Shown here in pieces: positions 5,840 to 33,346 of a stretch of 45,421 bases of DNA. The DNA is taken from the NCBI GenBank assembly GCA_028823035.1, contig JAPKCI010000025.1:1-45421 (forward strand), given 5' to 3'. The stretch is from Rubripirellula sp. (lineage in GTDB: Bacteria > Planctomycetota > Planctomycetia > Pirellulales > Pirellulaceae). Position 1 is the stretch's first letter. Each line of letters begins with the position of its first letter. The translations under genes were made by a program, and so were the position numbers. Under the pieces are notes generated by a model. The model worked only from the letters and a program-made list of their open reading frames with translations. It did not search any database and was not told where the DNA came from.

Positions 5840-6541
5840 CTACACCGAGTCCATTTGTTGCAGTTCGTCTTGCCACCAGTCATAGGCTTCAGGATTGGCC
5901 CGCCGCCAAACTACTCGTGATACGCCCAGGCTGATCCCCGTCACAATCAGACTAAACACTAGGCACCAAGTAAAGTTCTTGAGCCCGCTGTCAAAATCTT
6001 CGCGCCAAAACCAATAAGCACCGAGTGCGAGGGAAGGCAGCAAGACCATCACCACGGAAACGAATCGGTTCGAGATCCGTTTTGCCTTGACATGGTTTTC
6101 TTTCAGAAAGCCAATCACATCGTTCTCACTTCGTACACGCTTATTGTGGACATGGGTAATCAACGCTGGCATTCCAAGGAACACACCGGCAAGCAACGAC
6201 ATCGCAGCATGATTGCTAAAACCCTCTCGCAACCACTCGGATGAGCCCAGCAAGAGAAATGCCACCGACAACATCCCGAGTAAATAAACACCCGATTGCG
6301 ATGTCTCGATCTTACCCCGGTAAGTCGCAACAAAACTCTTTGCCAGATTCTGAGGGACTGTAGGAATCAAATCAACTCTCGCTATTCCGGCAAGAACCAA
6401 CCGCATTTCGCTACTCTGGCTGAGGTACTGCTGACCTGCTTCGGTCTCAATGAATGAATCCCAAACCGGTTTCTCTTCCTCAGACAAAACACCTCCATAC
6501 ACCACCTTCAAGCACAGTTGTTTCGCAAATTCTTCATTCAT
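5840..6541 (-). CDS. Four-helix membrane protein coupled to an ECF sigma factor (candidate anti-sigma)
   Basis: This encodes 233 residues. Its ATG overlaps the stop codon of the sigma factor gene as ATGA (6538-6541), so the two are very likely translationally coupled. Residues 1-80 are soluble and rich in Glu and Gln. Four hydrophobic segments follow at roughly 83-101, 113-131, 160-178 and 188-207. ECF sigma factors are often encoded next to a membrane anti-sigma factor with a cytoplasmic N-terminal sigma-binding domain, and this layout fits. I do not see the zinc-binding HxxxCxxC motif of the ZAS class, so any anti-sigma role is inferred from context, not from a recognised domain. Confidence 0.75.
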   Translation of the reverse strand: MNEEFAKQLCLKVVYGGVLSEEEKPVWDSFIETEAGQQYLSQSSEMRLVLAGIARVDLIPTVPQNLAKSFVATYRGKIETSQSGVYLLGMLSVAFLLLGSSEWLREGFSNHAAMSLLAGVFLGMPALITHVHNKRVRSENDVIGFLKENHVKAKRISNRFVSVVMVLLPSLALGAYWFWREDFDSGLKNFTWCLVFSLIVTGISLGVSRVVWRRANPEAYDWWQDELQQMDSV

Positions 6542-7047
6542 TTGGATTCACCTTTCTGAAGTATTTCGATTTTTCGTTCCAGGCGTTTCTTGGCGTGATG
6601 TAAACGCGACCAAACGGTCCCCTCTGGCACGCCCAGAATGCCGGCAATCTCGGCATGACGCAGTTGCTCAATGCAGAACAGGGTCAAGATCAAACGATCC
6701 CGGGGCTCAAGGCTTTCAAACGCCATTCGTACCAGCCCATGGAGATCATCTGCACTACGATCAAGATCACCGCTGGCCGCCAATTTTTCAGGATCAAGTT
6801 CATAACCCTCGAATCGATTTCGTTCCTTGAGTTGCTTGTGACAGACATTGATAGCGATTCGAAACAGCCAGGTTTGAATCTCAGATCGACCCTCGAACTG
6901 ATCCCAATGCTGATAGGCCAGAAAAAAGGTTTGCTGGGCAGCCTCCTCCGCTTCGATGGGATTACCAAACATCCTCAAACCTAAATGGAAAATGGCTTTC
7001 CAATGGTGCTCAAGTGCGTCGGCAAACGTCCCGGTTCCTGCGTTCAT
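6538..7047 (-). CDS. RNA polymerase ECF-type sigma factor
   Basis: This encodes 169 residues, the usual length for an extracytoplasmic-function sigma factor. Sigma region 2 spans about residues 10-80 and contains the DNA-melting and -10 recognition helices (AEEAAQQTFFLAYQHWDQF, then IQTWLFRIAINVC). Region 4 spans about residues 105-160 with the -35 recognition helix-turn-helix (AEIAGILGVPEGTVWSRLHHA). No C-terminal extension is present. It is the first gene of a two-gene operon with the overlapping membrane protein. The divergent neighbour is the UGA-interrupted HEAT-like gene, so both could share a control region (inference). No clear Shine-Dalgarno precedes the ATG. Confidence 0.93.
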   Translation of the reverse strand: MNAGTGTFADALEHHWKAIFHLGLRMFGNPIEAEEAAQQTFFLAYQHWDQFEGRSEIQTWLFRIAINVCHKQLKERNRFEGYELDPEKLAASGDLDRSADDLHGLVRMAFESLEPRDRLILTLFCIEQLRHAEIAGILGVPEGTVWSRLHHAKKRLERKIEILQKGESK

Positions 7048-7395
7048 GTCAGTTAGATATCCGAAATTCTGGATCCTTCAAAGAAATCGTCAGGATTTGA
7101 AAAAAACTTCGCGGGAGGACGGCATTTGTCGCCCAGTTTACAATTGTGAGCGCAATCAGGCTTCGCTTTTCCATCTCATGGACCCCAAAGACAAGGAACC
7201 ACAGCCTGTACCCGTAACTCCAGTGAATCAGGCCCTGTCTGCATGCGAAGCTCCCAGCAGAGAGACACAAACTCCTGAAGCACTGCATCATGGCGGAGAA
7301 CTCGCGCTGTTTCGTTTTTGATATTCCTGTAGGTTTTGCCATGAACGCACAACCCAACCGCTTTTCTTTCATTACGCGACAGGAGACATTCCGTC
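7048..7395. other. Divergent control region
   Basis: About 350 bases separate the sigma factor (minus) from the UGA-containing gene (plus). It must hold both promoters. The only firm signal is the Shine-Dalgarno AGGAG at 7381-7385, ten bases before the plus-strand ATG. I see no clear ECF promoter pair. Confidence 0.6.
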
Positions 7396-8766
7396 ATGTT
7401 TTTCGCAGCCAAGCCTAACGTGACCGACGGTGAAAAATCGAGAGTCGAGTTTTACTTTCAGCAACTCGCTGAGTGTATCGGGTTTGATCGCTTTCATTTG
7501 CCCGTGCTGAGTCGTGAAAAACTGATCGGCCTTGTTGAATCTGAGAGACTGAGCAACGAACAGATCATTGGTTTCCTCGGGGAACACCTCAAGCACGATG
7601 TTGGCGGCCTTCAGGTTCAAGTGGAACCGCAGCAGACGGCCAATTGCAGCGGCGGCGGATGAGGCGGCGGCTCATGCGATGGACTCGGCGGTCTGCCGGG
7701 CAACTACGATGCGAAACAACGACTCATTAACCTCAACACGGAGTCAGAGGACGATCCTCAGTTAACTCTGGCAACACTGATTCACGGTGTTGTCAGCGAC
7801 CTGCTGTACCAAAGCACTTTCAGCCAGCCCCACTTTCCTGAACTGGTTGAAATGGCTGTGATCGGAACGGGCCTGGGTGTGCTGCGCAGCAATCTTGTGT
7901 TTGTAAAGAAAGTGGCTAATTTTTGGGACTCAACTCATTGGAAAATCGCACCACGCCCGTTTTTGAACGTTCAATCGCTGGCTTACGCCAATGCCATCGC
8001 GGCGTGGTCGCGCAATGAGGTTTCACCCTCCTGGATAAACGACCTGAATGCTGAAGTGAAGCGCCCCATGCGCCGCTCACTCAAATATCTTTTCAAGACG
8101 GAAGATTCCTTTTTTAACCCCCACCGCGACGAGGCTCTTTTGAACCAATCGCAAAGTAAATGGTGGGACCTGTTAAAGCATTCATCCACTTCAACCCAAG
8201 TCATCGCCCTTCGTCACGTCAAATCAGAATCGGATCTAACGCCACAACAGGAATCTCTGCTGCTTGAAAAATTGGGTTCGACGAAGCGGGCGATGATTCT
8301 GAATGCGATCACCGCAACGGAGAGACTGTCAGCCGGACCGCAGACCAATGTGAGTGATGCACTGGTTGCACAGATACGCAGCTTAGTCGATCACCGGGAC
8401 GATGAAGTCCGCGCGAAAGCAATGTGCGCCCTGACGACAATCAGTCGCCTGGACAGCTCAGCAATGGATGCAGCGGCAAACATGATCGAAGACGACATTC
8501 GTCACGTGGTTTTTGCAGGTGTGCATGCACTGTCCACGGTCGATGAGGTTCCTGAGTACGTGTTACCCTCATTCGATCGCAGTTTCATCAAGGCTTTGAA
8601 GTCCTGCGACTACGAATTTGTCGGGCTGTTCGCCACCGGCTACAACCGCTGGCTGGACGATCCGCAGGCTCATCTGCAGCAATTGCTGCATCACAGCCCC
8701 GAATTCCTTCCGATCGCAATGGAAGCACTCGACCAAATCCCCAAGGAGGTCGTTTCCATTGGCTGA
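7396..8766 (+). CDS. HEAT-repeat-like protein with an in-frame UGA (candidate selenoprotein or nonsense-interrupted gene)
   Basis: An open frame starts at 7396 behind a good AGGAG, meets TGA at 7660-7662 as codon 89, and stays open in the same frame to a stop at 8766, giving 456 residues if the UGA is read. The UGA sits in the centre of CSGGG-X-GGGSC (residues 84-94), symmetric around it, where a cysteine would be natural. Residues after the motif run without stop into an alpha-helical region; from about residue 270 onward it resembles HEAT repeats, such as LVDHRDDEVRAKAMCALTTI. A SECIS-like hairpin follows the UGA. Alternatives are a simple Cys-to-stop mutation or a sequencing error. A tail in another frame to 8824 may be the original C-terminus. 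Function is unknown; no signal peptide is visible. Confidence 0.7.
7660..7700 (+). promoter_or_regulatory. UGA codon plus SECIS-like hairpin
   Basis: Downstream of TGA at 7660-7662 a six-pair stem (CTCGGC 7684-7689 with GCCGGG 7695-7700, one G-U pair) closes a five-base loop GGUCU (7690-7694). The distance from UGA to the loop is 27 nucleotides and the loop begins with G, which fits the usual description of bacterial SECIS elements. GGUCU also forms part of the apical loop of the E. coli fdhF SECIS. The region is GC-rich, so a chance hairpin is possible. Confidence 0.5.
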
Positions 8767-10635: not shown

Positions 10636-12072
10636 TCAACAGAGAATCTCTTTCACCACTGTCGCCTTGCGACCAGCAGTGATGATCTCTTCGCGACCCG
10701 CATGGTTGAACAATAGTTCGTCCCACTTCAACCCAAAAAGGTGCATCAGCGTGGCCTGATAGTCATTGGGCGTCACCACGTTCTCAATGGCTCGATGTCC
10801 AAAATCATCCGTTGCACCGTGGACCATCCCGGGTTTGATACCACCACCAGCGAGCCAGATACTAAACCCCTGACCATTGTGATCTCGTCCGTGTTTCTCT
10901 GGTGCGCCCTGATTCTGTGTCACCGGTAAGCGGCCAATTTCTCCACCCCAATGAACAATGACCTCGTCCAACATGCCTCGCTGCTTCAAGTCTTTTACCA
11001 AGGCAGCTGCTGGTTTGTCTGTCCGTCGGCACACGCTAGGCAAGCTGGTGCCAATGTTACTGTGATTGTCCCACGGTTGGCCTGCCAAAAACAATTGTAC
11101 AAACCGGACACCTCGTTCGACAAGTCGTCGAGCAATCAAACAACGTGTTCCATATTCTCGGGTCGTTTCATCATTCAAGCCATACAACTCGTGAGTCGCC
11201 TTGGTTTCTCTTGAAATATCCAGCGCTTCACGGGCCGATGTCTGCATTCGCGCCGCCAGTTCGTAACTGGCGATACGAGCTTCCAAATCATCCGCTCCAG
11301 GAAATCGGTCAGCATGACGCCGATTCAACGTCTGCAAGAATTCAAGACTTTGCTGCTGGGGACGGCCACGCAGATGTGCTGGTGCCTGCAGATTCAAGAT
11401 TCTTGGCTCTTTGGGGCGTAACACGGTGCCCTGAAACAGTGCTGGCATGAACCCACTGGACCAGTTGTTAATGCCATCGACCGGATGCCCGCCGGGATCG
11501 GTCAACACCATGTAGGCTGGCAAGTCCTGGGTCTCAGAGCCAAGTCCATACAGGAGCCACGAGGCAAGGTGTGCCCTGCCCAGAACGCCAGGGATGCCGC
11601 CATGGAAATAGCGAATGGAAACCTCGTGGCCATTTGCGCCAGTGTGCATGCTGCGGACCAAACAGATGTCATCCGCGATACTAGCGATTTCCGGCAACAG
11701 TTCCGAGAATTCCGTGCCACATTCTCCATGTTTTGAGAACTTCCACCTTGTCCCCATCAATTTCTTACTCGCTTCCTTGACGGAACTGTAGCCAACCTCT
11801 TCCTGATAGTCAGTACCATCGAAGCGAGTCAGTTCCGGTTTGGGATCCGTCAGGTCCATGTGCGATGGACCGCCATGTTGGAACAGGGAAATCATTGCCT
11901 TCGCCGTGGGCGGATGATGGGGTGTTTTTGGGCGAAGGTCGAAAACCGCGGCTTCTTTGGAAATATTTTTTAGCTTCGCCGCGGCCTGTTCCTGTTGCAA
12001 TAACCAAGCCAGCGCAAGAGATCCGATCCCCATTCCCTGTTGTTGCAAAAAACTACGTCGTGATAAATTCAT
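10636..12072 (-). CDS. DUF1501 protein with Tat signal
   Basis: This encodes about 478 residues. The start at 12072 follows GGTGGTGGACCT and opens with NLSRRSFLQQQ, a twin-arginine export signal (residues 1-32). Family features include GPSHMDLTDPKPEL near residue 70, GHEVSIRYFHGG, WDNHSNIG and WGGEIGRLP. The Tat signal suggests folding before export. DUF1501 resembles the alkaline phosphatase/sulfatase fold, but its substrate is not established. It lies 66 bases downstream of the PSCyt1-DUF1549-DUF1553 gene, its constant partner in planctomycetes, and is the last gene of the minus-strand run that starts at 18544. Confidence 0.92.
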   Translation of the reverse strand: MNLSRRSFLQQQGMGIGSLALAWLLQQEQAAAKLKNISKEAAVFDLRPKTPHHPPTAKAMISLFQHGGPSHMDLTDPKPELTRFDGTDYQEEVGYSSVKEASKKLMGTRWKFSKHGECGTEFSELLPEIASIADDICLVRSMHTGANGHEVSIRYFHGGIPGVLGRAHLASWLLYGLGSETQDLPAYMVLTDPGGHPVDGINNWSSGFMPALFQGTVLRPKEPRILNLQAPAHLRGRPQQQSLEFLQTLNRRHADRFPGADDLEARIASYELAARMQTSAREALDISRETKATHELYGLNDETTREYGTRCLIARRLVERGVRFVQLFLAGQPWDNHSNIGTSLPSVCRRTDKPAAALVKDLKQRGMLDEVIVHWGGEIGRLPVTQNQGAPEKHGRDHNGQGFSIWLAGGGIKPGMVHGATDDFGHRAIENVVTPNDYQATLMHLFGLKWDELLFNHAGREEIITAGRKATVVKEILC

Positions 12073-12138
12073 AGGTCCACCACCTGCCCGGTTGGGCAAT
12101 GCTGAGGACAGTCTTCGCTTTTGCACGTCACCATAAGG

Positions 12139-15100
12139 CTATTCCACATATAGAAATTCATTCGATGCAAACAGGGAATGACACAAACTGCTCATGGCCT
12201 GTTGAGCCGGCGTCCGACCGTTGGGCACGTGATCAGCAGACGATTCGAGAATTGTCAACTGGTTTCTGATGAACTTTGATGCCATGACAAGTTCTTCATT
12301 ACTGGGTTGACGTCCATAAGCCAACTCCCACGCGCGAATGATTTGGCCTGCGATCGCATCATATGAATCAACGCTACCGTTAAAACACTTTTCCGAAATA
12401 ATGGACTGCTCTGAACCGTCGATCTGTCGCAACACGATTGTCGTTTTCCAATTAAATGAATCCGTATTAGTACCCTCCCGGCAGTCGGTAATGAAATCGA
12501 CTGTCTGACCAGCAAACACCTGAACACCGTCGACGACGGTTTCAATGGAGGTGTTGTGAGCGATCCATTCTCCAAGGGTGTCTCCGTTTCGATTGGTCAC
12601 GATGCGTCCGCGCACGCCATCACCATGTTCCGACGGATGGCTCAAGGCCCCAGTTATCCTGATCACCCCATCAGCCGGTACCGTCCACCTGCGAATCACC
12701 GCATTCTTGCCACTGCCTGGGTGGCCACCGCCCGCACTTACCAGCGTGTACCCGAGATCTGGATCAGGCAACTGGCTGCTACCCTGCCATTGCGTACCGC
12801 TCCAATGCGGCAAGGGGTGAAACCTAGTAGCGGAATTATCTTCTTCATCATGCCAACCATAGCCATACTGCCACATTGGCTTTCGTGTCAGAAAGTCAGC
12901 AATCAAATCACGTTGCTCGGAACGAACCTCCGCGACCTCCCTCGCTGCCCGATCTGCCAACCTGCTGGCCTGGTCGAGAATGAATTTTCCATTCAGCAGC
13001 ATCAGAGATTGTGTCGCCACCGTGGATGAGGGGCGGATTTCACAATTTGTTTCCATGACCGGCGCATCAAAGGTCTGCAGCATTCCGACCGGCCGGCTGC
13101 GACGACTCTGGATATAGATACTCCTTCGAGACTGACCGCCCTCGACCATTACCTGACCCGTGTCATCTTCTTTGATTTTGAGCGGTGGACCGTAAAGTGT
13201 TTCGTCAAGACTGCCACTTGCGGCAAGCATCCGGTCACGAATGGTTTCGGCCTCAAGACGTCGCAGCGAACGGCGATAAAAAGCGGGTTCCCCCGATCCT
13301 ACTACCTGGCGATACACCGACGAACTCATGATCAACCTGTGCAACTGTTTCATGCTCCAGCCACGCTCAATGAATTCGTTGGCAAGCCAGTCCAACAATC
13401 GAAGATCCGCGGGTTGAGTCCCCAGTTTCCCAAAGTCGGCGGGTGTGGCAACCAACCCCTGTCCGAAATGGTGCATCCAAATCCGATTCGCAATGACTCT
13501 TGCCAACAGGGGATTTTCCGGACCAGTCAGCCAACGTGAGAATGCCAACCTCCGACCCGTCGAAGGCAGGGATGTGTCATCACTGGCAAATTCCGCGCGT
13601 TTACCACCCGCAGCCAGCACGCTAAGCGTCCCTGGGGATACTACTTGTTTGGGCTGCGCTGGATCACCGCGATGAAAAAGCTTCGTTTCCGTGACATGAT
13701 TGGCCGGCTCCACAAGCGCCCGAATGAATTGCTCAACAGGCTTGGCCGATCGTATTGTCTGGATCTGTTTATCAAATTCAGCCAGCTTTGGCTTCGAATC
13801 GGGAATGTACTGCGATATTTCTATGGGCCGGATGTTCACACTGGGGTTGGCAGACAGCAACTGCTTCTGCTCGGCGGAACGCTCCTTTGCCGGGGTCTCA
13901 TAAGCAGTTCTTAACTGAGTTCGCTGCGGTTCGTCGTATTTTTCCAGTAACTTATCGAGTGCCTGCTGCAAGTACTCAGCCAGTTTTACCGATTTCTGAT
14001 CAGCAACCTTCTTCGCCTCGATTTCAATCGCTGCAGCGTTGGCACGATCAGCAGCTGTATAAAGTGAAATCCGTCGTGCATTCGGGGTCTTCCAGGCCTT
14101 CCAGTCGAGTGCCGGCTCAAAGATCGCCCGCAAGGAATAGTAGTCAGCTTGAGGAACCGGGTCATAGCGGTGATCGTGGCACTGCGCACACTGGATACTT
14201 AAACCGAACAGTGACGTTCCAACGATTTTGAGTGTGTCAGTCACCACCTGGTTTCGCGCTGCATCGTCATTAGCACCACTTCCAGTACCATCAGCAGCCA
14301 TGCGCAAATACCCAGTTGCCGTCAAGAGATCGATCTGGGTTTCTGTCAGATCACCTTCAAGCACTCCGGCAAGTTCATCACCGGCAAGCTGTTCCGTAAT
14401 GAACTGGTCGAACGGCTTGTCCTGATTCAACGCGCGAATCACCCAATCACGGTACTTCCATGCCCAGGGACGTTCGGCATCTGTGACCGTGTACCCCTCC
14501 GAATCAGCGTAGCCTGCGATATCAAGCCAATGCCTGCCCCACCGTTCACCATAAGCAGGCATGCCGAGCAGATGTGTCAACAAATGGTCGTACCAGTCCT
14601 GCCGGGAATCCGTGAGCCATCTGGACATCTGCTCGGGCGGGGGCGGCAGGCCAAGCAAATCAAAATACGCCCGTTTGATCAACGTCGCACGATCTGCCTG
14701 AGGCAGAATTTCTGCCTGCTGATCCTCACTTGTTGGCCATTGCACCAACAAATCAATCGTATTCCGCAACGAGTCCTTACGGATTCGATCAGTGGGAAAA
14801 ACCAAGTCTTGCTGAATGGGCTGATAAGCCCAATGTGCACGTTCCTCTAACGTCACGCCCAAGCCCACCCCGATCGAATCTGCTTCGAGTCTTGCCGTTG
14901 ATGCTCCTTGAGCTATCCAGCGATAAATGATCTCGATTTCCTGACTTGAAACCTTCACTTCGCCGGGCGGCATTTCACCATCGCGAATCCGAGTCAACAA
15001 AAAGCTCTCGTCGGGATCCTTCAGGTCAATGGCTGGGCCGCTGGTTCCACCCTTTTTCATCAACCGAACCAGTCGAAGATCCAAGTCTCCTTCCAATTCA

Positions 15101-15246
15101 TCGGTGGCACCATGACAGTCAAAACAGTGCGCGCGAAAAATCGGGCGGATGTGTTGTTCGTAAGTCAATGCGTCCGTTGCATGCGTCCACTGACAGCAGC
15201 AGAACACCACGAGAGTCATGAGCGATAGACGCAAGATCATCGTCAT
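12139..15246 (-). CDS. PSCyt1-DUF1549-DUF1553 protein with an inserted beta domain
   Basis: This encodes about 1035 residues (start at 15246 or 15240; neither has a strong Shine-Dalgarno). A hydrophobic export signal (residues 1-23) is followed by a cytochrome-c-like PSCyt1 domain with CFDCHG at residues 41-46, a covalent haem-binding motif. DUF1549 follows (about 160-400) and ends with CAQCHDH, a second CxxCH. DUF1553 occupies about 590-990 but is split: near residue 830 it is interrupted by about 150 residues beginning GYGWHDE, which look like a beta-sandwich, before the final ELAYGRQPSNEE helix. The role of this family is unknown; haem suggests electron transfer. The DUF1501 partner lies downstream and two sulfatases upstream. 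Confidence 0.9.
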   Translation of the reverse strand: MTMILRLSLMTLVVFCCCQWTHATDALTYEQHIRPIFRAHCFDCHGATDELEGDLDLRLVRLMKKGGTSGPAIDLKDPDESFLLTRIRDGEMPPGEVKVSSQEIEIIYRWIAQGASTARLEADSIGVGLGVTLEERAHWAYQPIQQDLVFPTDRIRKDSLRNTIDLLVQWPTSEDQQAEILPQADRATLIKRAYFDLLGLPPPPEQMSRWLTDSRQDWYDHLLTHLLGMPAYGERWGRHWLDIAGYADSEGYTVTDAERPWAWKYRDWVIRALNQDKPFDQFITEQLAGDELAGVLEGDLTETQIDLLTATGYLRMAADGTGSGANDDAARNQVVTDTLKIVGTSLFGLSIQCAQCHDHRYDPVPQADYYSLRAIFEPALDWKAWKTPNARRISLYTAADRANAAAIEIEAKKVADQKSVKLAEYLQQALDKLLEKYDEPQRTQLRTAYETPAKERSAEQKQLLSANPSVNIRPIEISQYIPDSKPKLAEFDKQIQTIRSAKPVEQFIRALVEPANHVTETKLFHRGDPAQPKQVVSPGTLSVLAAGGKRAEFASDDTSLPSTGRRLAFSRWLTGPENPLLARVIANRIWMHHFGQGLVATPADFGKLGTQPADLRLLDWLANEFIERGWSMKQLHRLIMSSSVYRQVVGSGEPAFYRRSLRRLEAETIRDRMLAASGSLDETLYGPPLKIKEDDTGQVMVEGGQSRRSIYIQSRRSRPVGMLQTFDAPVMETNCEIRPSSTVATQSLMLLNGKFILDQASRLADRAAREVAEVRSEQRDLIADFLTRKPMWQYGYGWHDEEDNSATRFHPLPHWSGTQWQGSSQLPDPDLGYTLVSAGGGHPGSGKNAVIRRWTVPADGVIRITGALSHPSEHGDGVRGRIVTNRNGDTLGEWIAHNTSIETVVDGVQVFAGQTVDFITDCREGTNTDSFNWKTTIVLRQIDGSEQSIISEKCFNGSVDSYDAIAGQIIRAWELAYGRQPSNEELVMASKFIRNQLTILESSADHVPNGRTPAQQAMSSLCHSLFASNEFLYVE

Positions 15247-15434
15247 CGAGACATTCAAGGGTAGGCGGGAGCGAGGGCGGCAGGCGGGGAAGCAACCCGG
15301 TTGGGTGCAAGTCACGATGATACCCCAAGTGTGAGTCGATTGTACCCGCCAAAAAAACAAGTTTCGCCATCCTCTGCTGAAATCCTCGGCATGAACACCG
15401 AAAAACGCTGAAATTGCAGACGGGAATCCGGAAA

Positions 15435-21862: not shown

Positions 21863-24366
21863 TCATCCTGCCTCATTCAAAGAAGAATCAAGTCTTGTGC
21901 GATAGAGAAACGCATCTGAAGTAAGCAGGGAAACGAGCAAGGCCCGCATACTGCCACCACTCTCTTTGTAGGCACGATGCGCCTCCTGAAGCACAGGGGC
22001 GTCGTTAAGAGTTTCGTTGCGCCCCATCCAGAAACGGAAGGCGTGGCGGACGAATACCTGTTCGGCCCGTTCGCTCTCTGCCAACGTTTGAATCATCTCA
22101 ATCGCATTAGTGAATTTACCATCAAGCGTGGAATCGCCGGACTCAATGATCTCGCCGGTGGTGTCCACCGGTTGGTTGAGTTCAGTCGTTCGATACAGAC
22201 CTGCATGATTGTACATTTCGAAGGACAACCCAAGTGGATCCATCTTCTTGTGGCAAGTCCAGCAATAGTCCTGCCTTGTGACCTTCATTCGATCACGGAG
22301 AGTGCGACCTGGTTCATCTGGCAGCATGGCATCGACGGTAATCGGGACATCTGGAATACCGCCCCCGAGTAATCGTTCGCGAATCCATCGACCGCGGCGT
22401 ATCGCGTGATTGTCCATGGCATCAGAATGGGAAACGAGCCAACTAGGGTGGGTGAGGATTCCCAGTCGTTGACCTTTTGGCGCTTCGGCCAGAATACGAT
22501 CAGGTTTCATGGTCCCATTGCCAAAACTCCGCCGACTCACGCGGGCGAAAATCTTTGGTCCCTTGAGGTCCGCTTCGGCAACTTTATGGTTGAAGTTTGT
22601 TCGTTTTTTATTCGGAGCTTTCGGCGGTTTCTTTCCCGGATTGGCCTTCAACCAGGCTTCGCGTTCAGCGGCCACTTTTTTGGCCGCTTCGGCCGCCATC
22701 TTTTTGGCTGCGTTCACCAAGGCTTCTGTCTCTTCCTTGGAACGTTGCTCACCGAAATAAACACTGTCTCCCCGGGTAACAACCACCCTGTCGGTAGTCA
22801 GCAACTGTTTGAACACATCCTTGTCTTCCTCAAGAATCAGTTCAATCAGGCGATCCGTGCTCGCCGTTCCATCGAACATGGCACGATAGTGGGCCTGCCC
22901 CTTGACCGACGCACCGGTGTCATTCAACGCCTTTGTATCCTTGCAGATGTAACCACCCAGGTCATAGTCAAAGTAATCGCGGAAGAAGCGAAGAATCCTT
23001 GGTTTTCGGATACTGTCATCGGCTAACATCCGTTCGACTTCGCGCGTGACATCTGCTTTCGTCCGCATGCGTCCTTCCACAATGGCTTTCCGCAACTCGT
23101 CATCGGGTTGGATGTATCGCAATGCGTGATTGACAGCGAGGCCTAATTCCCAATCCTTCAGCATCACGCGTCCATAGCGATCCGGCTTGCCTTTTTCTGC
23201 CAGTTCCGGTCGAAACAACGCATCGCGATCGAGGAAAATGGATGAAAGGCCAAGCACCACACCATCTTCTTTTCCCAACTTCTCGACAGACTGTTGGACA
23301 ATCGTCAGGTACTCGTCGGATTCTTGTTTGCTCGGAGGCCGGAAACAAATCGCCTCGAAAAGAAAATCCACAGCACTCCGTAGACTCTCATCGGTCATGC
23401 CTTCGGTTTCCAACAATTCGTAGACCGGCGTCAGCGGCCGCATGACCTTCGTGCTATAGACAATGCTGGTCGGCAGCCCGCGAAGATCGCCCTTCATTTT
23501 GTCTTCGATCGACTTCGGGTCATCCGTAATCTGGTAGGCCTTGGCGATACTCAGTGGCCCATGGGCCATGTATCGAATGATGTTCTCGGCGACACCCAGG
23601 ATCTGCGTTGCTTCCGCACTATTGACGGTATAAAAATCGGGGTAGTTTTCCAGCCCATGATTTCTCGCCGACGATAGAACAGCAGGGATGCTCTTGACGG
23701 CTGTGGCATAGGCAACAGTCCCGCCTTGCCACTTGATGATCCGATCGGTTCCAAAATAAAGCTTGAGCTCGCCACCATGGTTGGTGGGAACGACATCGCC
23801 CTGTGAGCGCAACCCTGGCTTTTCCTTGTTGAAATCAGGTTCCTTGTTAATCAACGCATTCAGTCGCGTCATGTGTTCCTGCGGTGTCACACGCCAGATT
23901 CGCGCCGGAGAGGAGGTCGGTATGAGTTTGATGCCATTGGGTAGCGAACCAAAGAGCAGGTCGTGGTTAACAAAGTTTCCCTTATCAGGATCGCTATTAG
24001 CATGGAAACCACCCTTGTCGCGCATGGCGTGTTTCAGCTCGCTGACAATCCAGTCTGAAAACTGTAACCGTTCCACAACCTCAGGCTGTTCCATGTCCTT
24101 GGGCGGCATCTCCTTCAGGGTGACCTGAGCCCATACACTTTTCCAGATACCTGCATTGATCTCGTCTACTGACTCAAGATCAACGAGCGAGAGATTTCCC
24201 TCAGGGTCGGTCTCGCCGTGACAATCCGCACAATGGTTGAGCAGAAACGGCTTGGCAAAGCTCTCAAAGTCTTTGTCTATTTTCTGACCGGGCGTGTATG
24301 TCTCGCAACTTGCCACCGAAGGCAAGCCCCATGACACCAAGAGTGCCAAAGCAAAGATGACCTTGT

Positions 24367-24370
<4 letters not shown>
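21863..24370 (-). CDS. Planctomycete cytochrome C protein of the DUF1592/DUF1588/DUF1585 type
   Basis: This encodes 835 residues. A signal peptide (1-22) is followed by a haem-binding CADCHG at residues 47-52. DUF1592 lies roughly at 440-540 ([13 protein letters not shown]), DUF1588 at about 640-740 with a second CxxCH ([12 protein letters not shown]), and DUF1585 at the C-terminus ([15 protein letters not shown]). Between DUF1592 and DUF1588 an extra segment (about residues 540-610) is rich in Ala, Lys and Glu and looks helical. The biochemical role of this family is unknown. The ATG overlaps the stop of the upstream DUF1552 gene as ATGA, so the two are translated together. Confidence 0.9.
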
Positions 24371-28990: not shown

Positions 28991-31900
28991 TCAGGGTTGA
29001 ACCGTGTTCTGCTGGTTACGTATCTGCCGAAATTGCGGACTGGTCACTATCTGTTCCACAGCGGTATTGAATCGGTAACCGTTCGCTTTGAGTGCCAGCC
29101 GCATTTGATTCAACAACGGTTCGTCAGAAAGCAACACCTGACGACCAAGGGAAAATCCTAAAAGCTTGCGGCAAAACTGGCGAACGACATCATCACGACG
29201 ATCCTCGATCAGGTAACGACGAAGACCGGAGACCCCGTCAATCACCCGACCATTCAGGAGCGTCGCCCGCGTATCGGTCGTCTCGGGTCGCTGCCTGCCA
29301 AGGGCATCATATGATTCGAGAGCAAAGCCCAGTGGGTCAATGTGCGAATGACACTTGGCACAGGCGGCGACCGAACTGTGCTTTTCGATCATTTGTCTTG
29401 CTGTAAGTCCCGAGGGCAGTTCTTCAGGCAACAGCGGCACGTTTGCCGGGGGTCTTGGCAAATGCTCGCCGAGCAACGTTTCGTAGATCCAGTTTCCACG
29501 TAAGATCGGGCTCGTTCTCGAAGCACCTGATTGACTGGCCAGAAAGGTCGCCATACCCAAAACACCGCCGCGTCCACTGGCTCGAATCCCCTCGATCCGC
29601 TGCCACTTTTCTTCCGTAACCAGATCGACATCAACGCGATTGTCCAGCGACAACTTGATTCCATAGTGATCTGCCAACGACTGGTCAACAAAAGTATGGT
29701 CCGCATCAATCAAATCCAGAATCGATCGATTGTTCTGAAACATGTCTTCAAAGAACCGGACCGTTTCTCCATACATGCTGCCTCGTAATGCCGCAAACTC
29801 GGGATACAGGCTCTCATTCTTGTCATCATTCGTATCAAAATCGCGAAGATGCAACCATTGGCAGGCAAATTGAACCGCCATTCGCTTCACCCGGTCATCT
29901 CGCAACATGCGATTCACCTGTTGAATCAAGACGGGATCACTTTGCAGTCGACTGTCCCGGCCCGATTCCAACAATTCCGTGTCCGGTATCGAGGACCAAA
30001 GAAAGAAGCTGAGCCTTGATGCTAATTCCTGACCATCCACCTCAGACTGACCAGCCCCAGTACCGGGGCTCTCCAGCTTGTAAAGGAATTCGGGCGATGT
30101 CAAAACACGAGCAAGCAACAAACGCAATGCCTCCGCATGAAACATCCCCTCATCCCGCAACCGGCGGTAGAAACCAATCAACTGCTGCTGCGAATCCTCG
30201 TCGAGCCGCCGTCGCCAGGACAACTCCGCCAACATCACGACGGATCTGACATGTACCGGTTCCACGCCGGATTTTCGTTGCCGAAAATCCATCGCCCTAC
30301 GATTAATGGGTCCCCGAAGAGGTTCGAACGCAGTTACCAGGTCCGGTCGGTCTTGAGTCGCAAACTCAGAAATCTGCTCGAATGACACAGCCAACTTAAA
30401 CGGCTCATCGCTGACAAACAGCAGTTCGTCCCACAGTTGATCCAATTCCCGAGCCTCTTGTTGATCCAACATCAGCCGACGCAGGTGTTCGTCTTCACGA
30501 TGAAACAACGTCAACGTCACAACTTCATCGACAGGCACGATCCGGGCGTAACAGAGTGCAGGTGGAAACAGTTGTCCAAAGGACGCCATCGATGACTTGA
30601 TCGTACCACTGACTTTTCCCGCTGCATGAACCAGAACAGTTCCACCAAAATCGAATTCTGGCGTATCGACAGTCCCAAAATGAATCTGGACTTGAGCAGT
30701 TCCTTCTATCCCGCTTGCTGAATGCATCCGCGCGGTAGTCACCAGTTCTGCTGCGGCCAGTTCGTCGGGAATCTGGAACTCAATACGATGAGACCCTTGA
30801 CTGCACAGGTCAGCTGTATCAAGCGAACCTCCATCAGGATGAACACCAAAGTCCGGCTGCTGGCTATCCGCATCATCGCTCGCATTACCCTGCTCGGCCC
30901 CGCGTGTGGAATCTGGCGAAACAGCCGATTGCGAAATGGCAAGCCATCGAAGCGGCCCCCGCCAATCAAGCAGTAGCGTGCGCATCGCCCGGTCACCCGC
31001 AGTGAGGCCCTGTGGATTGTCCGTTATCACCGCTTGTTGTACCGTCGCAGCAAGAACTGACAGTTCCTGCAAGTCTGTTCTCTCACTTCCGATCGTAGGG
31101 CTGTCTCTCGACAACACCAATTCACTCCAGCGTGCCAATGCCGAATCGGCCGGAAGTGCGATGGCACTCTCTGGTTCCGAAGCACTCTCGAAAAAAGTCC
31201 AGACGCCAGGATTCCCCAAGGTATCCGCCAGTGGGTTCCCTTCTTGAATGCGGTCAACAATATTTTCGCTCAAATCCCATGATCGCTGCAAGCCTTCAGT
31301 TTCCGTCAACTTCAACTCGACGTGCGTTGTATCACATCCGTGATTCTCATCCCGTGAGTGGATCATCAAAACTACAACATCATCAACAGCCACAGTGATT
31401 GCCTGCTCCCCAATCCAATCTTGGCGACCACCGTTATCGATCATTCCCTTAGCAATCACATTCTGCCCGCGCCGAGTACGGTGCTCGATAATCCAGCCCG
31501 CACCATTCCCACATTTGTTATCTGCATCAGCAACAAGAGCATCCAGCTTGATCGTGGCATTTAACGGACTCTTCCACCCAACACACGCTGCACTGGTAGG
31601 CGACGGATGAACAACCACCGACCTTTGAGGGATAGTCAACGTGAGAAAGCTGATTGCTTCTCGCGAACGATTGGTCAATAAACTTGGTGTCCCGGAAACA
31701 CCCCAACCGTTGATTGCATCGTAGCCCTGAGCCTTGGTCAGGCGATTCACAAAGAGGCCTTTAATCTCACGCGTGTGCGATTGCCCCAACCCGGTCACAG
31801 CTGACCAGCATGCCAACAGGTCACGATTGAGGGCTTGGGCATCGGCAACCTCGTCAAGTGTCAGCTTCCCGAGATGCAACTGCAGCAAAGCATCGAGATA

Positions 31901-33241
31901 TTGCGACGTTTTTGTGGCCTGCTGCTTCTGCAAGAGTTCAACATCTCCAACCACATTACGCAGATCCCGCAAAAGAATGGGTGGCTGAACGCCGGAAGAA
32001 TCGGGTTTAAAAACAAGACGGGGTTTCTGCCACACGACGAAGTCGTGCTGATCTCCATCACCGAGATCGTGAGCCGCCAAGATCACCCGAATGTCGGAAC
32101 CGTCCTCTGACGCCACCAGTGGAAGTCGCAATTCCTGTTGGTCCAGCACTGGAGTCACCGATTCCATCCACTGCTTGGGTCCTCCTTGACGACCGATGTG
32201 TCCAATCGAATTGAATTTCCATAACCCGTCCTGGGCCTGCTTTACTTTGGAAACAAGCAAGTCAACATCCGTCGTTGCTGCTCTGCGCCATTCAGCCTGC
32301 AAGCTCTTGATGAGAAACGAGTCAGTGTCCTCGTTCGTAAGACTGTGCCAAAGAATCCCGAGGTATCTCGGATTCAGGCCATATTGGCTGGCAACCTGTT
32401 CAATCGACTGTGTTCCGCTTCGCAGGGCATGCTGCCTGTCCAAGGTAGCCTGCAAGTACGACTTGATCGGCAACAAGCCTCCCTGATTAGTCTCAAACTT
32501 GATGCCTTGCAGGTTAACAGCAGCTCCGCCGCCGTCGGCAGTATAGCTTCGATAGAAATTCTGAATCTCGGCCAGTAAGTCATTGGTGCGGTCACGTTGG
32601 GTGATTGATTCAGTGAACTCGATGCCGTTGGGAAGCAACATCAAGTGGTCCGCAATGCGTTTCGCAGAATCCAGGTACTTCCGCAACAGTGCAGGCGACA
32701 TCGCCTGTCCGCTGCCGACGTTCGTAAAACCCTCGCCAGCAGCTCCATCCACTGGCAGTTCTCTGGCTGGCGCAAGCGTCTTCAGTTGCGTGATATCACT
32801 GATTGCATAACTGTATTCAGCATTGCTCAAACGTCGCAGCACGACCGGGCCCGGATCACCCGATTTAGCGATGGCCTCAGCTGCCAAAAAATCTCGCGTC
32901 CAAGTCTGCAACTGCTTCAATTCGGCATCACTCGGTTGCGGAGCATCCCGCGGTGGCATTTGCCGACTGCCCAGTACCTGCCGAACTTTCAACCAGAGAT
33001 CGATGTTGTCGCGAGCATGTTCGATCGTATCAAGGGTATCAAAATCAATGTCTCCCTCTTTCGTTTCACCACCATGGCAGTCTCTGCAGTACGTCTTGAT
33101 CACCGAAAGCGTCGCCGAATCCAACGCGTTCGGATCCACTACCCGATTCTCAGCGATGCAGAAATGACTACAACAGCAAACCACGAATACTGACCGTGTC
33201 AGTCGCTGTGCAAATCGCAACGCCATCAGCAATCGAATCAT
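28991..33241 (-). CDS. Very large planctomycete cytochrome C protein (DUF1587/1595/1592/1588/1585)
   Basis: This encodes about 1416 residues from the ATG at 33241; an in-frame ATG at 33295 would add 18 residues. A signal peptide (1-30) is followed by haem motif CRDCHG at 52-57. DUF1587 starts about residue 133 (VVLRRLSNAEYSYA). The middle (about 200-1000) is unusually long and includes a beta-rich block near residues 560-700. The C-terminal third carries DUF1595/DUF1592 (SPEFLYKLESP, FFLWSSIPDTELL), DUF1588 with a second CxxCH (CAKCHSHIDPLG) and DUF1585 at the end. Role unknown; haem suggests redox work outside the cytoplasm. It is coupled to the following DUF1552 gene. Upstream lies a 17-bp repeat. 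Confidence 0.88.
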   Translation of the reverse strand: MIRLLMALRFAQRLTRSVFVVCCCSHFCIAENRVVDPNALDSATLSVIKTYCRDCHGGETKEGDIDFDTLDTIEHARDNIDLWLKVRQVLGSRQMPPRDAPQPSDAELKQLQTWTRDFLAAEAIAKSGDPGPVVLRRLSNAEYSYAISDITQLKTLAPARELPVDGAAGEGFTNVGSGQAMSPALLRKYLDSAKRIADHLMLLPNGIEFTESITQRDRTNDLLAEIQNFYRSYTADGGGAAVNLQGIKFETNQGGLLPIKSYLQATLDRQHALRSGTQSIEQVASQYGLNPRYLGILWHSLTNEDTDSFLIKSLQAEWRRAATTDVDLLVSKVKQAQDGLWKFNSIGHIGRQGGPKQWMESVTPVLDQQELRLPLVASEDGSDIRVILAAHDLGDGDQHDFVVWQKPRLVFKPDSSGVQPPILLRDLRNVVGDVELLQKQQATKTSQYLDALLQLHLGKLTLDEVADAQALNRDLLACWSAVTGLGQSHTREIKGLFVNRLTKAQGYDAINGWGVSGTPSLLTNRSREAISFLTLTIPQRSVVVHPSPTSAACVGWKSPLNATIKLDALVADADNKCGNGAGWIIEHRTRRGQNVIAKGMIDNGGRQDWIGEQAITVAVDDVVVLMIHSRDENHGCDTTHVELKLTETEGLQRSWDLSENIVDRIQEGNPLADTLGNPGVWTFFESASEPESAIALPADSALARWSELVLSRDSPTIGSERTDLQELSVLAATVQQAVITDNPQGLTAGDRAMRTLLLDWRGPLRWLAISQSAVSPDSTRGAEQGNASDDADSQQPDFGVHPDGGSLDTADLCSQGSHRIEFQIPDELAAAELVTTARMHSASGIEGTAQVQIHFGTVDTPEFDFGGTVLVHAAGKVSGTIKSSMASFGQLFPPALCYARIVPVDEVVTLTLFHREDEHLRRLMLDQQEARELDQLWDELLFVSDEPFKLAVSFEQISEFATQDRPDLVTAFEPLRGPINRRAMDFRQRKSGVEPVHVRSVVMLAELSWRRRLDEDSQQQLIGFYRRLRDEGMFHAEALRLLLARVLTSPEFLYKLESPGTGAGQSEVDGQELASRLSFFLWSSIPDTELLESGRDSRLQSDPVLIQQVNRMLRDDRVKRMAVQFACQWLHLRDFDTNDDKNESLYPEFAALRGSMYGETVRFFEDMFQNNRSILDLIDADHTFVDQSLADHYGIKLSLDNRVDVDLVTEEKWQRIEGIRASGRGGVLGMATFLASQSGASRTSPILRGNWIYETLLGEHLPRPPANVPLLPEELPSGLTARQMIEKHSSVAACAKCHSHIDPLGFALESYDALGRQRPETTDTRATLLNGRVIDGVSGLRRYLIEDRRDDVVRQFCRKLLGFSLGRQVLLSDEPLLNQMRLALKANGYRFNTAVEQIVTSPQFRQIRNQQNTVQP

Positions 33242-33346
33242 CCAACTCGGATTCGAGCCAGCATTCAGGGATGTTGTGATTAATGAAAACAGCATTTGCT
33301 TTTTACTCAGCTGTCACATGAGGTTGTATCGCCCTCAATGCTCACT

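Follow-up and report, generated by a model that had tools for sequence, protein, structure and literature searches.

Selenoprotein genes of the fdhF type combine a UGA codon with a hairpin that follows it, and depend on SelB and tRNA-Sec. In the part of PMC4607533 used here, the epsilonproteobacterial SECIS is described as a common hairpin of 5/6 bp with an invariant G in its loop. A 2026 review (PMC13188914) gathers 119 prokaryotic selenoprotein families in its Table 1, many of them with NCBIfam models, and selenoproteins have been described in a Rhodopirellula isolate in the sections of PMC4807772 considered here.

Here, we describe a gene that resembles the fdhF type in all of these elements and, like the families of the review as tabulated there, is bacterial and has a conserved Sec/Cys column. 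It had been put forward as a candidate new selenoprotein in an earlier reading of the DNA letters (the original prediction). The UGA/Cys column, the purifying selection, a covarying hairpin, the presence of the selenocysteine (Sec) machinery and the co-occurrence of that machinery with the UGA form together support this view, and from this comparative evidence we estimate the probability that the gene encodes a selenoprotein at roughly 0.97.

The stretch of DNA analyzed, which we call the window, is 45,421 nucleotides long and constitutes one contig of a 7.4 Mb genome that is 99.58% complete and assembled in 523 contigs. The gene lies at 7396–8766 on the plus strand, as do all of its features given below, and consists of a single frame of 456 codons followed by a terminator TGA (8764–8766), with one internal TGA at codon 89 (7660–7662). 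Inspection of the sequence places a likely ribosome-binding site, AGGAG, at 7381–7385, 10 nt 5′ of the ATG at 7396. The next in-frame ATG is at 7852, 189 nt past the UGA, and no in-frame GTG or TTG occurs between the two. The uninterrupted frame on either side of codon 89, the good ribosome site and the 189 open bases had all been pointed out in the original prediction, and our reading of the sequence agrees with it on each. Codon 89, which we read as selenocysteine (Sec89), forms the center of the motif Cys84-SGGG-Sec89-GGGS-Cys94 (7645–7677), defined from the sequence and from an alignment of 51 loci.

These loci were collected in two steps. We first screened 60 relatives and obtained 12 strong full-length matches, counting the window gene itself; nine of them have one internal TGA and three have none. 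A profile built from the 12 (A1) was then used to search 241 genomes from the bacterial family to which the window belongs (E <= 1e-20), and it detected 51 full-length loci, the window's included, in 50 genomes. Exactly one internal TGA is present at 38 loci from 37 genomes, and 13 loci are without a stop. We inspected the motif at all 51 loci, reading by hand those of G230, G190 and G171, which had been missed by the motif pattern. The TGA always occupies the same codon and the other 13 loci have Cys there, as had been expected from the window sequence, so that all 51 loci have U or C at position 89. The UGA loci come from four genus-level groups (g1, g49, g72 and g76). His64, Gly90, Gly91 and Cys404 are invariant across the alignment, Cys94 is present in 49/51 loci, and residues 90, 91, 92, 94, 100, 102 and 104 are each identical in at least 49. 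In a phylum-wide sample of 392 genomes (E <= 1e-10), the full-length family was found only in the window's own genome; five other genomes gave partial matches in which the motif is absent, four of them with HExxH.

The mirror symmetry of CSGGGUGGGSC, emphasized in the original prediction, is true of the window protein and is not conserved among its homologues. A Cys lies within six residues upstream of the UGA at 26 of the 38 UGA loci, and within six residues downstream at 36; the conserved core is GG-U-GGG, with a Cys at +5 in those 36/38. The two exceptions, G190 (L092) and G171 (L096), keep the UGA and have GTS and GGV where the downstream Cys is absent; G171 is also a long branch in the tree described below. 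Two of the Cys loci (G194 and G215) have the motif SCGGGCGGGSC and a third (G230) has CSSGGCGGGNC. The remaining 10/13 have GGGCCGG without the upstream Cys. Either Cys of this pair may align with Sec; the first was used for reading the motif and the second for dN/dS. One genome, G005, carries two diverged UGA copies (L011 and L030, on G005:C417 and G005:C328), which are either paralogues or the product of a mixed bin.

Downstream of the UGA, at 7684–7700, the window gene has a hairpin with the stem CUCGGC (7684–7689) / GCCGGG (7695–7700) and the loop GGUCU (7690–7694). It begins 21 nt past the UGA, with 27 nt separating the UGA from the loop, and it shows the hallmarks of a SECIS, namely a hairpin directly past the UGA and a G in the apical loop. 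We take the loop to be the same as that of E. coli fdhF, and it presumably lies farther from the UGA than it does there. Across the family, the loop is GGUCU or AGUUU, and once AGUCU, a variation that sets it apart from the fdhF type. The six-pair stem, its loop and its spacing had been described from the window alone; with 51 loci in hand, the stem proves to be both conserved and covarying. A perfect 6-bp stem with a 5-nt loop at the exact spacing occurs at 33 of 36 UGA loci, compared with 64 of 16,407 when the same arrangement is sought after other codons of the same genes (this test, like the dN/dS analysis, excluded G230, G190 and G171, so that it covers 36 of the 38 UGA loci).

We aligned the hairpin region of the 38 UGA loci and of L056, which is identical to L073 over 60 nt (alignment A2; 39 rows, 36 of them distinct, with identical rows counted once). 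In the 36 distinct UGA rows, 98.1% of the stem cells are paired, and stems slid by one to three columns pair at most 49.5%. There are 12 cells with a double change, compared with a mean of 1.7 after shuffling, and none of 500 shuffles reached 12; three of the six pairs have changed on both sides, a value reached by 16/500 shuffles. RNAalifold, supplied with no structure, predicted the same stem plus one extra pair closing the loop. Two of the covarying pairs, at columns 27/39 (C-G, U-A, G-C, G-U and U-G) and 30/36 (C-G, U-A and U-G), join third codon positions. Changes there are mostly synonymous, and their covariation is a sign of selection at the RNA level. Against this, pair 27/39 is broken in two distinct rows and pair 25/41 in two; G171 has its outermost pair broken, and G190 retains all six pairs. 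The GU of the loop (columns 32–33) is invariant in the 39 rows.

The corresponding alignment of the 13 Cys loci plus L055, which equals L061 there (A3; 14 rows, 13 distinct), has a stem that is 67.9% paired, not above some of its slid versions, and no covariation was detected in the stem across the 13 distinct rows. Among the 12 Cys loci listed, G194 alone keeps all six pairs, and its stem looks like a fossil SECIS. Folding the 60 nt from the UGA of the window gene, as had been suggested, returned the hairpin within the minimum-free-energy structure, yet the stability of that fold is nothing unusual (z +0.8, with 165/200 shuffles at least as stable); the 17-nt hairpin on its own gives z −2.5. 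The case for the hairpin rests on its position and its covariation.

The window's genome encodes the whole set of components that the original prediction had named for checking: tRNA-Sec (70.3 bits, called tRNA-SeC by ARAGORN), selB (316 bits), selA (507 bits) and selD (243 bits). At L045:3204–8832 (G000:C325), selB, selA and a fusion of a pyridine-nucleotide oxidoreductase with SelD follow each other consecutively, their ORFs overlapping by 4 nt. The same genome offers a second selenoprotein candidate for comparison. Beside the tRNA-Sec gene, at L044:3309–4019 (minus strand; G000:C398), there is an AhpC-TSA/redoxin gene (Pfam AhpC-TSA, E 6.8e-16) with an in-frame UGA in the string HWUPFC and a hairpin, CAGCU-GGUCG-AGCUG, that begins 15 nt past the UGA. 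It thus shares with the window gene an in-frame UGA and a downstream hairpin with GGUC in the loop, but it is a Prx-like redoxin with a UxxC motif, neither of which the window protein has, and it belongs to a known, listed selenoprotein type.

A tree of the 51 loci and one outgroup was built with a 'quick' method. The 13 Cys rows form one clade (SH-aLRT 100), which adjoins two UGA rows (support 87) and is nested within the UGA diversity; on this tree, the Sec/Cys split is one change. With presence thresholds of E <= 1e-80 for selA and E <= 1e-60 for selB, selA was found in 31/37 UGA genomes, selB in 32/37 and either of them in 34/37, and neither gene was found at these thresholds in any of the 13 Cys genomes, all of which have a completeness of 97% or more; because the Sec/Cys change is single, this co-occurrence counts as one event and not as 50. 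The search for tRNA-Sec covered the 13 Cys genomes and 12 UGA genomes besides the window's own. Nine of these 12 have a match of 67–70 bits that ARAGORN also calls tRNA-SeC. There was none in G186 and G176 (E <= 1e-6), and the 42.9 bits of G192 are below the cut-off. Four UGA genomes therefore show gaps: G186 (80% complete) and G192 (71%) have no selA, selB or tRNA-Sec above the cut-off, G189 has tRNA-Sec as its sole component, and G176 (83%) has selB with no match to selA or tRNA-Sec. These are probably incomplete bins. In the Cys genomes, the tRNA-Sec search returned 43.6–49.8 bits in 12/13 and nothing in one; three of the matches pass the cut-off, and ARAGORN calls all three tRNA-Ser. Weak selA-like matches of 60–70 bits, far below the cut-off, occur in the Cys genomes G021, G032 and G034. 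The window's genome also has a second selA-like match, of 68.5 bits, and we have taken matches of this strength for other enzymes.

Comparison shows the UGA codon, the hairpin and the machinery to belong together, as judged from sequence. SelB would bind the hairpin 21 nt downstream and bring Sec-tRNA-Sec to the UGA at codon 89, after which translation would continue to codon 456. The Cys form arose once on the tree, with Sec as its probable ancestor, in a lineage lacking the Sec machinery, where Cys stands at the Sec position and the protein is retained. This direction depends on a root set by one outgroup with a long branch (4.8) and the root is accordingly unsure, but the direction has support from the apparent fossil stem in G194.

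The protein has three parts. Our AlphaFold2 model (mean pLDDT 81, pTM 0.78) runs from a helical N-terminus through a strand, the loop 80–98, two short strands and a helix (121–139) to a solenoid. The N-terminal domain covers approximately residues 1–244 (7396–8127), the Gly-rich Sec loop residues 80–98 (7633–7689) and a C-terminal HEAT-like alpha-solenoid residues ~253–446 (8152–8733). The Sec loop lies between the predicted strands 73–76 and 102–105 and, with a pLDDT below 50, is probably disordered in the model. The solenoid is seen in the predicted helices and in Foldseek, where the best matches of the whole model are alphaRep, HEAT and Armadillo proteins (query TM ~0.3), and those listed are solenoids only. 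Pfam gave only sub-threshold HEAT and adaptin matches, the HEAT_2 match (E 0.0033) falling below the cut-off, so the description 'HEAT-like' in the original prediction is supported by the predicted fold and fails the Pfam cut-off by sequence. A sequence search of the PDB returned nothing at E <= 1. The protein does not have the thioredoxin fold with UxxC or CxxU: its motif is U-x4-C, and the model is mostly helical with few short strands.

The N-terminal domain was examined by comparing profiles. Weaker relatives in other planctomycetes have no Sec motif, and several have HExxH. Eight of these relatives, of which 6/8 carry HExxH, were combined into a profile (A5) that hhalign matched to A1 over residues 2–242 with a probability of 99.4 and an E value of 9.7e-22. 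Some of these proteins (L097, L098 and their kin) have sub-threshold Pfam matches to SprT-like, M78 and M48 families, the SprT-like match in one relative reaching E 1.1e-4, and in L097 a long open frame also extends past the domain. By these profiles, the N-terminal half of the window protein is homologous to HExxH zincin-like proteins, a relationship that the original prediction had not seen. The two groups also differ: HExxH is found in 6/8 relatives versus 0/51 family members, and the Gly-Sec loop is absent from those eight. Helix 121–139 aligns with the HExxH helix of the relatives, with H130, G131 and S134 in the places of H, E and H. Within the family, Glu occurs at 131 in 0/51 and His at 134 in 1/51, and D135 and E149 are invariant. 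E149 is one column off a later conserved Glu of the relatives in the A1/A5 alignment, and it may or may not be a remnant of that residue. Of the features of a zincin metallopeptidase, the protein shows the domain homology and does not have the HExxH catalytic motif. The model of the N-terminal domain alone (pLDDT 70) had no Foldseek match at E <= 0.001 among ten, the best being selecase, a metallopeptidase, at E 1.9; this fold match being weak, the zincin reading rests on the sequence profiles. Four proteins of the window's own genus (L025, L026, L024 and L031) combine a zincin-like domain with a C-terminal extension and, on visual inspection, lack both the Sec loop and HExxH.

The gene neighborhood offered no clue to substrate or function, with flanks of at most ~4 kb and often of 1.5 kb or less. 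The largest cluster of shared neighbors comprises seven genomes. Upstream of the selenoprotein gene and divergent from it, 6538–7047 on the minus strand encodes a sigma factor of the sigma-70 family (ECF-like). This ORF recurs near the gene at four loci of three genomes, and the ORF past it at five loci of four genomes, the window's own included in both counts. Elsewhere in the window, the minus strand encodes three large planctomycete cytochrome-domain (PSCyt/PSD) proteins (10636–15360, 21863–24370 and 28991–33295), and there is also a DUF1501 protein.

Our functional proposal starts from the position of Sec89 in the flexible, Gly-rich loop, within a zincin-like domain that has no HExxH and is followed by the HEAT-like solenoid. 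Sec89 would serve as a tethered redox nucleophile, forming a selenenylsulfide mainly with Cys94 (U-x4-C), and domain and solenoid would hold the partner protein or small substrate on which it acts. The solenoid, as modeled, suggests a protein partner. We lean toward a thiol/selenol redox role because Sec and Cys exchange at position 89, Cys94 is kept at 49/51 loci and the protein is retained in genomes without selA and selB. That U-x4-C is the working pair is a prediction to which we would give even odds. From the alignment, Cys94 appears as the most constant partner of Sec89, but no single pair can be obligatory, since Cys94 is absent from G190 and G171 and the upstream Cys from 12/38 UGA loci, and this weakens any specific disulfide scheme. 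The same counts, with the downstream Cys absent at 2/38, led us to reject C-x4-U-x4-C as an obligatory triad.

A tentative extension, which we think somewhat less likely than not, is that of an active-site swap. The Sec loop lies between strands on the N-terminal side of the helix that aligns with the HExxH helix, and a metalloprotease-like zincin scaffold may have lost HExxH and gained a Gly-tethered Sec, becoming a selenol-based enzyme in which Sec would be ancestral and Cys derived only where the machinery was lost. The absence of HExxH from the family, set against its presence in 6/8 relatives, could also be read in another way, with the Cys-x4-Sec-x4-Cys loop providing ligands for a soft metal (Cu, Hg or Zn) in replacement of the lost zinc site, and no redox pair. 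Three chalcogens do lie within the flexible, Gly-rich loop of the window protein. Stricter conservation would be expected of a ligand set than we see, with the upstream Cys missing at 12/38 and the downstream Cys at 2/38 UGA loci, and with CC at a different spacing in 10/13 Cys loci, and we consider a metal-binding role unlikely. Much less probable still is a carrier or chaperone that handles selenium for the synthesis of Sec or selenophosphate. The UGA form does accompany selA or selB in 34/37 genomes, as such a role would have it, but 89 of 120 selA-bearing genomes are without the UGA form, and the gene is retained in its Cys form in 13 genomes that have neither selA nor selB; the persistence of that form indicates a function other than Sec synthesis. 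The redox role remains our preferred reading.

Other explanations deny that the UGA is read as Sec at all, and for these the coding properties on either side of it are informative. We calculated Nei-Gojobori dN/dS for 14 hand-chosen pairs on both sides of the UGA. The values are 0.04–0.38 upstream (13/14 pairs defined) and 0.05–0.12 downstream (10/14 defined, the rest having saturated dS), and over the first 62 codons past the UGA all 14 pairs have a dN lower than their dS. Both flanks of the UGA are under purifying selection in the measured pairs. The locus could in principle make two proteins, a short peptide stopping at the UGA and a second protein whose translation starts internally, farther downstream: the ORF from the ATG at 7852 would encode 304 aa, and some ATG, GTG or TTG lies 11–64 codons past the UGA in 36/36 UGA loci. 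The 62 codons after the UGA are, however, conserved as protein, the near-invariant residues between 90 and 104 fall within them, and the 13 Cys homologues form a single continuous frame. Moreover, the next ATG is scattered between 22 and 252 codons after the UGA in the 36 UGA loci, which leaves no conserved internal start that could account for the pattern. We reject the internal restart as very improbable, in line with the argument against a fresh start made in the original prediction.

Equally improbable is the insertion of another amino acid by near-cognate Trp or Cys reading, with the hairpin as a read-through or pausing signal: across the 51 loci the UGA exchanges only with Cys and never with Trp, the Sec machinery accompanies the UGA form, and the hairpin decays in the Cys forms. 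TGA as a plain sense codon was also rejected, since TGA is the terminator of 15/36 UGA genes and is therefore not simply a sense codon there. The rival that the original prediction had ranked first, a Cys codon that recently mutated to a stop or was misread in sequencing, draws on TGC and TGT being one base off TGA and on an assembly in 523 contigs, and it is refuted by an identical UGA at 38 loci of 37 genomes in four genus-level groups and by the purifying selection downstream, leaving a pseudogene barely conceivable.

As to novelty, no entry in Table 1 of PMC13188914, several of which give no motif, names a zincin or HEAT scaffold. Three of its motifs, GUxG (hypothetical protein DG), GxGU (UXX-star family 2) and GxUxG, fit the Gly-rich string trivially. 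Our family differs from those tabulated there in its scaffold, as far as they are named, and in the outcome of a scan of one NCBIfam release. In that scan, three family members had no match above the cut-off, with ~19 bits to M3_fam_3 and DVU0298_fam. The new families from deep-Sep, as named in the part of PMC12013277 used here, include no match by name. Our literature search found no selenoprotein that joins a HEAT repeat or metalloprotease to a Gly-rich GGGUGGG motif. With the reservation that the candidates in table S9 of PMC4807772 lie outside this comparison, we regard the gene as very probably the founder of a new selenoprotein family.

Such a family would add to the known selenoproteins one that lies outside the thioredoxin fold and is spread through one planctomycete family, and its members are likely to be annotated as truncated ORFs wherever the UGA is taken as a stop. 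If the scaffold reading holds, the question of how a metalloprotease-like domain becomes a selenium-based protein turns into a testable one. The family also presents a probable case of Sec coming first and Cys second, in which the hairpin decays where Sec is abandoned, except in G194.
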